Of a stretch of DNA of 64,000 nt, positions 2,237 through 20,594 are shown one piece after another (within the stretch, counting starts at the first letter, position 1; the number at the start of each line of letters is the position of its first letter). The notes beneath the pieces were generated by a model. It saw only the letters and a list, made by a program, of their open reading frames with translations. It had not been told where the DNA came from and did not search any database. The stretch is from positions 62,001 through 126,000 of the forward strand of contig NZ_QNSE01000012.1 of the NCBI RefSeq assembly GCF_003315485.1, written 5' to 3'. The translations under genes and the position numbers were made by a program. The DNA comes from Marinomonas rhizomae. GTDB taxonomy: Bacteria; Pseudomonadota; Gammaproteobacteria; Pseudomonadales; Marinomonadaceae.

Positions 2237-3151
2237 TCAATAAGCTAATGATGCGCAAGCTTTAGCAAAGTAATGACAATACAGTTGATAGAAGCGCGTA
2301 ACATGAATAGGCTTTCCCCCTTTGTATTGGTGTAAAAAATAAAAGTGCCACTCTCTGCCTCTTATTTCAGGCAACACTCTAACAAGTCGCTCTTTATTAA
2401 GATCTGTTTGCGCTAAGAACTCGGGCAACAATGCAACCCCCATATCACTTAAAACCGCCTCTAAAGCAGAAGTCAGAGTATTCACTTTTGCACAATGAGC
2501 CACAGATATCAGTCGTTCATTCGTTTGTTTATTATCAAACAACTGCAATTTTTCACGATGCCAAGCCGTAGCAATAAATCGATGATTAGATAGCTGCTCA
2601 ACACACTCAACAACGCCATATTGCTTGATATACAGTGGTGAGGCACAAAATATTTCAGACACCCTACCGACAGATAACGCACGATACCCACAGTCTTTTA
2701 TATCGCCACCAAAAATTGCAGCATCTAAATTGTGCTCTATCAGATCTTGCCATTTCTCAGTAACCACCACTTCCGGCGTCAATTTAGGAAACTCCAAACA
2801 CAGCTGTTTTAATACAGGAACAACAATGCCCTTCTCAAGAAAAGGTGGTACTGAGACTTTAAAGTGGCCACTGGGTTGCGCCTTTTCATCGTCAAGAGCC
2901 ATGAGCGTCATACTCAACTGTTCACTCAGTAACTCACTACGAGCCAATAAAGTTTCACCTGCCGAGGTCAACACGACGCCTCGCGTATTACGTATTAATA
3001 ACTGATGCCCTATTGATTCTTCCAAACGCTTTATTTGCTGACTGATGGCAGATTTACTCATACCTAATTTTTTCGCCGCCGCAGTAAAAGAACGCTTCTT
3101 TGCCACTTCGACAAAAATTAACAATAAAGGAGCCAATTTCACACTGTTCAT
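2237..3151 (-). CDS. LysR family transcriptional regulator
   Basis: The N-terminal HTH (SFTAAAKKLGMSKSAISQQI, then a dimerisation helix with RTRGV-type wing) is followed by a periplasmic-binding-like effector domain to the end. At 304 residues it has normal LysR length. An upstream ATG at 3190 would add 13 residues and leave only about 50 bp to the divergent DUF1330 gene; the start at 3151 fits the family better, though neither has a clear ribosome site. The divergent layout suggests it controls the DUF1330 gene, its own promoter, or both. Confidence 0.85.
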   Translation of the reverse strand: MNSVKLAPLLLIFVEVAKKRSFTAAAKKLGMSKSAISQQIKRLEESIGHQLLIRNTRGVVLTSAGETLLARSELLSEQLSMTLMALDDEKAQPSGHFKVSVPPFLEKGIVVPVLKQLCLEFPKLTPEVVVTEKWQDLIEHNLDAAIFGGDIKDCGYRALSVGRVSEIFCASPLYIKQYGVVECVEQLSNHRFIATAWHREKLQLFDNKQTNERLISVAHCAKVNTLTSALEAVLSDMGVALLPEFLAQTDLNKERLVRVLPEIRGREWHFYFLHQYKGGKPIHVTRFYQLYCHYFAKACASLAY

Positions 3152-15808: not shown

Positions 15809-17185
15809 TTAGTTCTGATTGATGAAATAGTTAATTACATAAGCTGGAAGCTCTGCTGCTGGCACAACGATTTGCTCCATAGTATCACGGTCACGAACCG
15901 TCACAGGCGCACCTTCTTGTTCGATAGAATCGAAGTCGACTGTTACACAGATTGGCGTGCCTACTTCGTCATGACGACGGTAGCCTTTACCTACATTGCC
16001 TGTATTTTCATAAAGAATACGACCAAGGCCCAATTTCTGAAGCTTATTTTTCAATTCTTTAGCAAGGGCAACAATCTCTGGCTTGTTCTTTTTAAGTGGC
16101 ATGATAGCCACTTTGATTGGCGCTAGATGCGGTTTGAACTTAAGAACTGTTCGAGAGGAGCCATTTGGCAGCTCTTCTTCGGTATAAGCTTCTGTCATTA
16201 CAGCTAATAGACCGCGATCTAGGCCTGCAGAAGGCTCGATGCAAAAAGGCACTTCCCATTTATTTTCTTCAAGATCGCGGATCGCCAACTTAGCCGTTGA
16301 GTGCTCGTTTTTCTTCACTTTCGCAGAAAGGCCAAATTCTTCTTGTGCTTTTGTGTGAGAACCAAGATCGTAATCCGTACGGTTAGCAACGCCTTCTAGT
16401 TCTTCAAAACCATGTGGAAACTTGTACAAGATATCCACAGTCGATTTCGAATAATGTGCTAGGTCATCGCCTGTCACGTATTCAAATTCAATATTTTCTT
16501 CTGCTAGTCCTTGATCCAACCACCATTGCTTACGAGCGCCTACCCAGAATTCATGCCATTTCTCGTCTTCACCAGGCTTACAGAAGAATTCCAATTCCAT
16601 TTGTTCGAATTCACGAACACGGAAAATGAAGTTACGTGGCGTAATTTCGTTACGGAATGATTTACCAATCTGTGCGATACCAAATGGCAAAGTACGAGAA
16701 GTCGAATCGACAACGTTTTTAAAGTTAGTAAAGATACCTTGTGCAGTTTCTGGACGAAGGTAAGTATAAGACTCCTCGTTCACCATTGGGCCAACGTTGG
16801 TTTTAAACATCAGGTTAAAGTCACGCGGCGCCGTAACGTTAGTAGAGCCACAGTTATCACAGACTTTGATGTCTTTCATGTGGTCGGCGCGCATACGAGA
16901 CTTACACTCGTGACAATCCACCATCGGATCGGTAAAAGTATCTTCGTGACCTGAATATTTGTAGACATGTTTGTTTTGGATAATCGCCGCATCCAAACCT
17001 TCTACATCATCACGCTCATAAACCATTGAGCGCCACCAAGCGGCTTTTAGGTTGTTTTTTAATTCAATACCTAGCGGACCGTAATCGTAAGCACCTTGCA
17101 TACCACCGTAGATTTCACTGCCTTGGAAAATAAATCCGCGACGCTTACATAGGGAGACGAGTTCATCCATTGTTTTAGCTGGCAT
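15809..17185 (-). CDS. glyS: Glycyl-tRNA synthetase, single-chain alpha2 type
   Basis: A 458-residue class II synthetase of the homodimeric, eukaryote/Gram-positive-like type, not the alpha2beta2 GlyQ/GlyS enzyme usual in gammaproteobacteria. It contains the glycine-site segment [15 protein letters not shown], a four-Cys zinc knuckle (CHEC...CDNC), motif 2 ([20 protein letters not shown]), motif 3 ([13 protein letters not shown]) and a C-terminal anticodon-binding domain. The ATG at 17185 follows AAGG; a TTG 21 bp upstream is less likely. No T-box leader is present. The symbol follows the single-chain annotation convention and does not mean the GlyS beta subunit. Confidence 0.93.
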
Positions 17186-17532
17186 TTCTAAACACACCTT
17201 AAGCAAAATTTGTTAATGAAGACATAAAAACCAATCAGGTATCATGTTCAAGTAATAATAGCCGCCCATTGTACTCGTTGACCCTATTTCGCTCAATGGC
17301 GATTCCATACAAGCCATGAATAAGTGTTCTTGACTATTATTCAAAAGACAGCGGGCAAGATCATACCTAGATACTTAAGCCTATTTGGCCATAATTAAAA
17401 ACTTTACACTTCTATGCACAAAAATAGGACAAAGTAAGGAACTAGACTGCTGTTTTAAAGTCCATTTTGTTAGATAATTCGTATTGTTTACATATTTTAA
17501 TTTACATAGAACATCTATTTAAAGGTAACGGC
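17186..17532. other. Intergenic region between glyS and DUF3429 gene
   Basis: A 347-bp divergent spacer. No gene, RNA or long repeat was found. It should hold both promoters; the best plus-strand candidate is weak (TTGTTT, 17-bp spacer, TAGAAC, around 17486-17514). No T-box motif was seen on the glyS side. Confidence 0.4.
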
Positions 17533-19252: not shown

Positions 19253-19987
19253 CTAAATCATGTCTAAGCTTAAGAATAATCGCTTTTTCGTATCACTCGC
19301 AGAAGGTGATCGATGCACCACACCTCGCCCCAATGACGTAGGCCATTCGTCCCCTTTCATAAGCGCCACATCACCTACATTTAATCGATTAATACGGCCT
19401 TTTTCATGCAGACCACTATTGTGGTCGGCCACATGCCCACCAAGTCCCAAGCGATCTCTTATCACGTGAGCTTCATGCAGCCACTCACTGCCTATTCCTG
19501 CATACGTCGATACTAATCGACAAGGGATTTTATCCACATGAAAACGCGGACACATAGCACTTGAGAGCACATTCAGGCGTAGACCAACTTCTTTAAGGTC
19601 AAATAAACACGCAAACATATCGACCAATAACGTCACATCTTCCACGAACAAGCCCTTATGTTGGGCATCAGGCAAAAGCTTTGTTAACGTGGTGTTAAGT
19701 TGTTCTGAACTGCCATGAGATTTGAACACAAAATTTGGCGCAGACACTAATAAAGATTCGGCGTATTGAGAAACGGCCCCAAGCTGCCTTTGCCAAACCG
19801 CCATACTAATATTGTCTTGGTAAATATCGGCAAGAACGTCTTGATCATACGACTTCACTACCCCCAATAACTGCGGCTTTAGCTCGAAACTTACTTGATC
19901 AGTTTGCTCTGTATCAATGAAATTGAAACGAATATTCTTTAAATCAATCGATTCCGACATTTTTTGTAAACTAAGATTCACCTTCAA
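19253..19987 (-). CDS. DUF1826 family protein (probable Zur regulon)
   Basis: A protein of about 244 residues with the DUF1826 core: QDNISMAVWQR near the start of the conserved part, then CPRFHVDKIPCRLVSTYAG and GDVALMKGDEWP. The conserved Cys/His residues suggest metal binding or an oxygenase-like fold, but no activity is established. In other bacteria this family is linked to zinc starvation and COG0523 metallochaperones. No ATG lies near the best ribosome site (GAGGA); a TTG at 19987 fits it, and an ATG at 19960 is the alternative. A strong Zur-like box lies 48 bp upstream. Confidence 0.78.
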   Translation of the reverse strand: MKVNLSLQKMSESIDLKNIRFNFIDTEQTDQVSFELKPQLLGVVKSYDQDVLADIYQDNISMAVWQRQLGAVSQYAESLLVSAPNFVFKSHGSSEQLNTTLTKLLPDAQHKGLFVEDVTLLVDMFACLFDLKEVGLRLNVLSSAMCPRFHVDKIPCRLVSTYAGIGSEWLHEAHVIRDRLGLGGHVADHNSGLHEKGRINRLNVGDVALMKGDEWPTSLGRGVVHRSPSASDTKKRLFLSLDMI

Positions 19988-20034
19988 AACCACTTCCTCT
20001 AAAAATGCATGCTGACCAACAACATCAAAGTATC

Positions 20035-20057
20035 GATATGTTACGTTATAACATTTT
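20035..20057 (-). promoter_or_regulatory. Zur-box-like operator upstream of DUF1826 gene
   Basis: A 23-bp partly palindromic site agrees with the gammaproteobacterial Zur consensus (GAAATGTTATA-N-TATAACATTTC) at about 19 positions, with GTTA and TATAAC half-sites. It lies between DUF1826 and the divergent Lrp-type gene. Zinc-responsive repression of DUF1826 is the simplest reading. Confidence 0.72.
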
Positions 20058-20126
20058 ATAAATAAAGTATTGAAATGAAGCCTGTGAATCCATTAAGTTA
20101 ATGCCTACTTAAAAGAGATAGACGCT

Positions 20127-20594
20127 ATGGAACAGTTAGACTCAACCGATCGTAAAATTCTTAATTTACTACAGCACGATGGCAGCCTAAGTGCGACTCA
20201 GGTGGCGGATAAGATAGGCTTGTCTCAATCACCCTGCTGGCGACGCATTAATCGTCTTGAACAAGACGGCTATATTCGTTCAACACAAGCAATTTTAGAC
20301 AGAAACAAATTAGGATTAGGAATCGTCGTATTGGTAAACATCAAGCTCTCTTCCCATGGCCGAAAAATGCTAGATGAGTTTGAACAAGCAATTGTTGACT
20401 ACCCCGAAGTGGTCGAGTGTTGGACGATTTCTGGTTCTATGGATTACAGCTTAAGAGTGGTTTCTAATAGCATCGAAAGCTATGAACACTTCCTACGTAG
20501 CCAGTTATTACAGCTGCCACATATTCAGGAAGCGCAAAGTCACTTCACCATGCGTGAAGTGAAAAACATCACCACTCTTCCACTGGACTTATAA
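20127..20594 (+). CDS. Lrp/AsnC family transcriptional regulator
   Basis: A 155-residue protein: N-terminal HTH (SATQVADKIGLSQSPCWRRINRLE) and a C-terminal RAM/AsnC ligand domain (about 70-150) with the ECWTISGSMDYSLRV segment. Members bind amino acids and assemble into octamers. The divergent gene encodes DUF1826 and the next gene is DUF5062, so the target is not obvious; no adjacent amino-acid permease is present. Confidence 0.9.
   Translation: MEQLDSTDRKILNLLQHDGSLSATQVADKIGLSQSPCWRRINRLEQDGYIRSTQAILDRNKLGLGIVVLVNIKLSSHGRKMLDEFEQAIVDYPEVVECWTISGSMDYSLRVVSNSIESYEHFLRSQLLQLPHIQEAQSHFTMREVKNITTLPLDL

Follow-up and report, generated by a model that had tools for sequence, protein, structure and literature searches.

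A DUF1826 gene of Marinomonas rhizomae appears to be repressed by Zur and to encode an Fe(II)/2-oxoglutarate (2OG)-dependent oxygenase of the DUF1826 family, and we give this mechanism as a whole a probability of about 0.72. Regulation of DUF1826 by Zur and zinc is already known in kind, and the oxygenase prediction is new as far as the literature searched goes. The predicted oxygenase fold, the link to the COG0523 chaperone ZigA and the clade-wide stand-alone arrangement of the gene are additions to a first-pass annotation, which had proposed a stand-alone Zur target. The window, meaning the whole stretch of DNA analysed (64 kb), contains the following elements.

19253..19987, minus strand: DUF1826 gene, predicted Fe(II)/2OG oxygenase fold (PF08856, AlphaFold2 model, start-codon evidence)
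20035..20057, no strand: Zur-type operator, a palindrome (matrix score, 21 of 22 stand-alone loci, nine-locus alignment)
20127..20594, plus strand: divergent Lrp/AsnC-family regulator gene (PF01037/PF13412; homologue at 9 of 22 stand-alone loci)

Membership of the gene in its family is plain from computation: residues 50-244 match PF08856 (DUF1826) with an E-value of 8.7e-58 and 196 bits against a curated cut-off of 22. By DUF1826, the closest named relatives include Marinomonas alcarazii, arctica and lutimaris. Translation likely starts at TTG 19987, giving a product of 244 amino acids, rather than at GTG 19993, which would give 246. The TTG is preferred as start because AGAGGA is suitably spaced from it and one relative has ATG there, and the GTG is disfavoured because it abuts AGAGGA and is missing in the close relatives L080 and L094. 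Residues are numbered here from GTG 19993. RpmE2, FolE2 and DksA2, the zinc-independent 'C-minus' replacements, resemble DUF1826 in being Zur-regulated and made at zinc shortage; unlike them, DUF1826 is a single copy in the genome with no second, zinc-dependent one, and the idea of a zinc-sparing paralog pair (C-plus/C-minus) was rejected.

Directly upstream of the gene lies the 23-mer operator GATATGTTACGTTATAACATTTT at 20035-20057, where the first-pass annotation had placed a Zur-like site. The distance to the probable DUF1826 start codon is 47 bp, and the divergent Lrp-family gene starts 69 bp away on the other side. Of the 22 fixed positions of the gamma-proteobacterial Zur consensus, which we take to be GAAATGTTATANTATAACATTTC, the operator matches 18; this confirms the site noted in the first pass, for which about 19 of 23 had been given. 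A Zur matrix trained on 15 zigA-promoter sites, none of them from the DUF1826 locus of the window, gives the operator a score of 23.9, by far the best in the 64 kb scanned, where the runner-up independent place reaches 5.6 and a register overlapping the operator 6.3. A single simulated 20 Mb sequence, of first order, contained one equal score, so that about 0.2 such scores per genome would arise by chance. A site of 15-18 of 22 is found upstream of DUF1826 in 21 of the 22 Marinomonas-type stand-alone loci (window counted), and all 21 reach at least the 95th percentile of 100 single-base shuffles per locus, 6 of them just equalling the top shuffle. The sole exception, L100, holds a DUF1826 remnant of 70 residues. 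When nine close loci are aligned, the core of the operator hardly changes while most flanking columns vary. The gene is thus preceded by a palindrome that is both conserved and beyond chance. This evidence, drawn from sequence, strongly supports Zur control of the DUF1826 gene and fits published expression in other genera; Zur would bind at 20035-20057. A sigma-70 scan of 19900-20200 found no promoter. Situated between two divergent genes, the operator could also touch the promoter of the Lrp-family gene (20127).

Further copies of the site occur in the genome, as the first-pass annotation had proposed to check, and they define a Zur regulon by computation: they lie before zigA, rpmE2, folE2, the nicO-zur-znuC run and, weakly, znuA. 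Sites were located genome-wide by pattern search, and chosen ones were then matrix-scored. With at most one mismatch the pattern falls at five places, namely zigA, rpmE2 (L31 type B), DUF1826, a PEP-carboxykinase-like gene and folE2, whose ORF starts 396 bp from the site. Of the Zur boxes found, the one upstream of zigA matches best, with 0 mismatches. The site before the PEP-carboxykinase-like gene (G000:C9:18236; gene named by eye from its sequence) was taken as chance. By matrix, the site before nicO-zur-znuC scores 20.9 and that before znuA 15.8, a weak value for which position is the argument because about 2 scores of at least 16 are expected by chance per genome. The FUR-family gene that adjoins znuC is the candidate Zur repressor; its best NCBIfam model is Zur, at 118 bits, under the model cut-off of 167. 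The znuB-like ORF after znuC was named by eye.

Two further Zur-type sites were seen in the genome. One, at 1501 of L037 (G000:C4), scores 23.0 and precedes the gene of an AztD-like lipoprotein (346.7 bits, against a model cut-off of 400). The other, at 1501 of L038 (G000:C11), scores 19.1 and precedes a family-5 solute-binding-protein gene, possibly a broken one, as it is split into two ORFs (1535-2287, 2312-3022). An Lrp-like gene (L031, G000:C1, 768-1238, minus strand) is divergent to zigA as another is to DUF1826, so that each of these Zur targets has an Lrp-like gene of its own.

Elsewhere the usual operon partner of DUF1826 is the COG0523 chaperone ZigA; here zigA lies elsewhere in the genome, and each of the two genes has its own Zur box. 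The first-pass annotation was right that no COG0523 gene adjoins DUF1826 at this locus, but it had missed zigA elsewhere in the genome, under the best-matching box. DUF1826 is present in 47 of 94 genomes searched, own genome included. It stands alone beside a DUF5062 gene in 22 of the 47, all from one genus, with SDR and DCC1-type genes as neighbours at 21 of these 22 loci and a tRNA-synthetase gene on the other side at all 22. A zigA homologue (at least 50 % identity) lies upstream on the same strand at 19 of the other 25 loci, in one of them in pieces; a site of at least 15/22 upstream of zigA or DUF1826 is likewise found at 19 of the 25, and the regions scanned at the remaining 6 gave scores of 10-13 and no site. 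Across 80 genome-contig loci, scanned over up to 1.9 kb without shuffles, the best score is below 15 in 15. The stand-alone proteins (20 of 109 tree rows) form one side of one branch with SH-aLRT 99 in a quick tree, and loci without adjacent zigA occur in other genera too, for example in Vibrio. Because 22 loci of the same genus, a single tree branch and cases from other genera agree, the lone DUF1826 gene is one lineage's arrangement and no oddity of this genome. A stand-alone Zur target, as first described, is thus a true account of the locus but an ordinary state for the clade, and one met in other genera.

Outside the stand-alone clade, 55 of 71 genome-contig loci have an operon neighbour of any kind, and in 40 of these 55 a COG0523 (zigA-type) gene is among them, nearly always directly upstream of DUF1826. 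Other neighbour clusters found in at least 3 loci are ZrgA-type (9), Zur (7), MerC-type (6), ABC ATPase (4) and ZnuA-like (3), each judged by one representative, with ABC ATPase and ZnuA named by eye. Counting ZigA over its model cut-off, the 94 genomes divide into 37 with both proteins, 10 with DUF1826 only, 5 with ZigA only and 42 with neither; within the genus (n=48) the numbers are 31, 6, 2 and 9, and in both cases the co-occurrence test ignores shared ancestry. DUF1826 is probably a partner of ZigA. On the far side of the window locus, 15809-17206 (minus strand) encodes a class II tRNA synthetase (PF00587, PF03129), by eye a single-chain glycyl-tRNA synthetase with CxxC...CxxC pairs, and no GlyQ-type synthetase (PF02091) was found in the draft genome. 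That a possibly zinc-binding synthetase sits beside a zinc-starvation gene may be coincidence.

The oxygenase assignment rests on the predicted fold and the residue pattern because sequence-profile methods see nothing. Profile searches of the PDB with 31- and 79-row DUF1826 alignments gave 0 matches, a Pfam scan of 79 DUF1826 members gave no match to a 2OG family, and NCBIfam has no family for DUF1826. Alignment by hhalign to 31 proteins found by Pfam 2OG-FeII_Oxy_3 gave a probability of 0.1 % (0.1-0.8 % for subsets), and eight unrelated control alignments, two of them overlapping Lrp sets, were as high or higher (0.1-5.4 %). On these searches DUF1826 is not assigned to 2OG-FeII_Oxy_3 (PF13640).

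Structure prediction points to the Fe(II)/2OG oxygenases. The AlphaFold2 model of the window protein has a pLDDT of 89.1 and a pTM of 0.81, with ten-residue means of 87-99 from residue 41. Foldseek against the PDB returned 138 matches at E <= 0.001, and the best 50 of the 138 are all Fe(II)/2OG oxygenases or proteins of closely similar fold, ACC oxidase for example, with low TM-scores of 0.28-0.50 by query length. In a second comparison (VIA) the same model reached Z 11.0 to a Pseudomonas putida prolyl-4-hydroxylase (3.1 A, 145 residues) and 10.8 to PHD2, and rank 50 was still at 9.8; by the comparison tool's own note, models without a clear match typically peak at a best Z of 7-8. A second AlphaFold2 model, of a Nitrosomonas MAG protein and built from an alignment without Marinomonas rows, has a pLDDT of 95.2; among its PDB matches listed, all 50 are of the 2OG/Fe(II)-oxygenase fold, with a best Z of 11.2. 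Taken together the two models score Z 11.0-11.2 to the P. putida enzyme and 10.8-11.2 to PHD2. The double-stranded beta-helix of the superfamily is thus seen, in predicted models only, and DUF1826 is predicted to be a protein of the Fe(II)/2OG oxygenase fold.

These best structural matches, P. putida prolyl-4-hydroxylase (PDB 4j25, 4iw3) and PHD2/EGLN1 (Z about 11 over about 145-157 residues), have the order HxD, distal His and late Arg in common with DUF1826, whereas identity is just 6-15 % in those rows, without any profile match. The HRSP motif and a Cys before HxD are marks of DUF1826, unlike the prolyl hydroxylases. The closest viral fold matches, BFVD A0A3G5A5D1, A0A3G5ADC6 and A0A5J6VJH6, are uncharacterised giant-virus proteins, the best of which (E 4.7e-8, TM 0.61) is nearer than any of the best 50 PDB rows.

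The codons of the proposed active-site residues and of a near-invariant Cys close by are as follows, with counts from an alignment of 143 rows.

19538..19540, minus strand: H152, proposed iron ligand 1 (HxD), 142 of 143 rows
19532..19534, minus strand: D154, proposed iron ligand 2 (HxD), 142 of 143 rows
19313..19315, minus strand: H227, proposed iron ligand 3 (HRSP, model strand 226-228), 142 of 143 rows
19280..19282, minus strand: R238, proposed 2OG carboxylate-binding Arg (model strand 238-245), 141 of 143 rows
19550..19552, minus strand: C148, near-invariant Cys, four positions ahead of the HxD His, 142 of 143 rows

Redundancy was left in the set of 143 (at least 14 rows share their genome with another row), and the set omits L089 and L100, which were too short as extracted, as well as L108 and L160. 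Exceptions to H152, D154, H227 and R238 are the degenerate homologue L266 and the frameshifted copy L099. In distant members (20 of 49 match rows, short partial matches left out) P149, K213, W217 and R179 change while these four residues stay. By residue pattern, H152, D154 and H227 would form the HxD/E...H metal triad. The segment CPRFHVDKIPC had been noted in the first pass for potential metal ligands, and its His and Asp do look like two iron-site ligands with a third His 73-75 residues downstream; of its cysteines the first is kept in 142 of 143 rows, but the second, in 118 of 143, is not universal. In 2OG oxygenases the 2OG-binding basic residue is usually an Arg about 10 residues after the distal His. 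R238, by position alone, is a candidate for this role: it is the first residue of the last model strand, 11 after H227, which lies in the preceding strand, as in 2OG oxygenases. From the aligned ends of the structures (246 with 391; 231 with 393) R238 would lie opposite the corresponding Arg of PHD2, presumably R383.

Published expression comes from other genera. In the portions of the reports available, DUF1826 genes are zinc-starvation or Zur targets in Pseudomonas and Francisella (PMC4542158, PMC5786701), in agreement with the earlier remark that the family is associated with such regulons. For a P. aeruginosa znuA mutant, PA5534 is listed among the up-regulated genes with a value of 57.5 (PMC4542158). 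In Francisella novicida, qRT-PCR showed FTN_1758 to rise more than 30-fold under a chelator, and in a zur mutant the rise was at least 30-fold (PMC5786701). PA5534 is, by the excerpt available, also raised by N-acetylcysteine. Both genes share with the window gene the Pfam family, by the papers' annotation, and, it would seem, induction at zinc shortage. As far as these extracts go, FTN_1758 was shown to be a Zur target, and PA5534 is part of a dksA2-zigA unit described as Zur-regulated; PA5534 thus shares its unit with dksA2 and zigA, whereas the window DUF1826 is alone under its own Zur box. These extracts give neither gene a fold or a tested activity. In the accessible text of these and further papers the product is called hypothetical, a possible or annotated chaperone, or desuccinylase-related (PMC2770081, PMC5786701, PMC9431628, PMC11761036, PMC10393844, PMC4542158, PMC13083405), and a 2025 paper has PA5534 and PA5535 as annotated metallochaperones (PMC13083405). 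The literature searched, mostly non-subscription papers available in part, held no mention of DUF1826 as an oxygenase. Dioxygenases also figure in the zinc-response tables of PMC10563805 and PMC7174638, where the text available gives a glyoxalase-type entry, 4-hydroxyphenylpyruvate dioxygenase and a down-regulated dioxygenase without a name; none of these is linked to DUF1826.

Several other readings were weighed. The one that comes closest to ours would dispense with catalysis: DUF1826 would keep the double-stranded beta-helix and the H-D-H site purely to bind zinc or cobalt and pass it on, as a chaperone or storage partner of ZigA. Zur control and the ZigA neighbourhood suit such a role, and the near-invariant Cys148 close to HxD could be a further ligand, but a pure metal binder has no obvious need for the late Arg that occupies the 2OG-binding position in nearly every row; we consider this reading improbable, though well worth keeping in mind. 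The Francisella paper (PMC5786701, in the part available) relates DUF1826 to succinylglutamate desuccinylase, which would make it a zinc-dependent enzyme of that kind. Since the models match 2OG oxygenases among the PDB matches listed and the 79 members scanned yield no such Pfam match, we find this relation scarcely credible.

The operator itself invites two other accounts. Its 69 bp distance from the divergent gene would allow the Zur site to serve the Lrp-family gene (20127) and to lie near DUF1826 by chance. We rejected this idea since the site persists where the Lrp gene is absent: 13 of the 22 stand-alone loci lack the gene and, bar the remnant L100, retain the site upstream of DUF1826, and zigA-DUF1826 operons have theirs upstream of zigA, which leaves the Lrp account very unlikely. 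Alternatively, the 23-mer might be a palindrome that arose by chance, or a site of the Fur type. With up to 3 mismatches allowed, the genome does give 20 forward hits against 14 for a reversed control, so that weak hits alone mean little and are mostly noise, but the operator's score is rare by chance, the motif is also found at zigA, rpmE2, folE2 and the zur operon, and nearly all stand-alone loci conserve it; to this account, too, we attach very little weight.

A Zur-repressed oxygenase, the reading that we prefer, would work as follows. When zinc is plentiful, zinc-bound Zur would occupy 20035-20057 and block transcription; when zinc is short, the block would lift and DUF1826 would be made alongside ZigA, L31B, FolE2 and the zinc importers. 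The protein would bind iron via H152, D154 and H227 and 2OG via R238, and would hydroxylate a target within the response to zinc starvation, the most plausible being a protein that works with the ZigA chaperone; catalysis and substrate are what we infer here. That DUF1826 is, more narrowly, a zinc-starvation-specific Fe(II)/2OG hydroxylase modifying ZigA (a COG0523 GTPase) or a ZigA client is a tentative proposal, and on balance an unlikely one. Were it true, bacterial zinc allocation would be subject to an oxygen- and iron-dependent switch, comparable to the prolyl hydroxylases that act on EF-Tu and HIF.

If the preferred reading holds, zinc-short cells induce, together with the ZigA chaperone, a modification that needs iron and oxygen, in parallel with the Fur-regulated CciO/PiuC oxygenases of iron starvation. 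CciO is, in the text available, a Fur-regulated 2OG/Fe(II) dioxygenase-family protein required by its partner iron receptor (PMC12004947), and by analogy it is the nearest functional precedent for DUF1826. CciO, PiuC and YbiX are alike in being metal-starvation-induced cytoplasmic oxygenase-family proteins with a fixed genetic partner (PMC12004947, as far as available); they answer iron via Fur and partner a TonB receptor, whereas DUF1826 would answer zinc via Zur and partner the GTPase ZigA. PA5534 is, by the part of the record available, one of the genes that zinc starvation raises strongly in Pseudomonas, and the oxygenase prediction gives this puzzling gene a testable job.

Some copies of the gene are damaged: that of G027 (L099) is frameshifted and that of G032 (L100) truncated, and ZigA over the cut-off is missing from both genomes, which belong to the genus. 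The copy of G005 (L089, L108) is an intact frame of 224 residues, with stops confined to the aligned stretch upstream of the frame.
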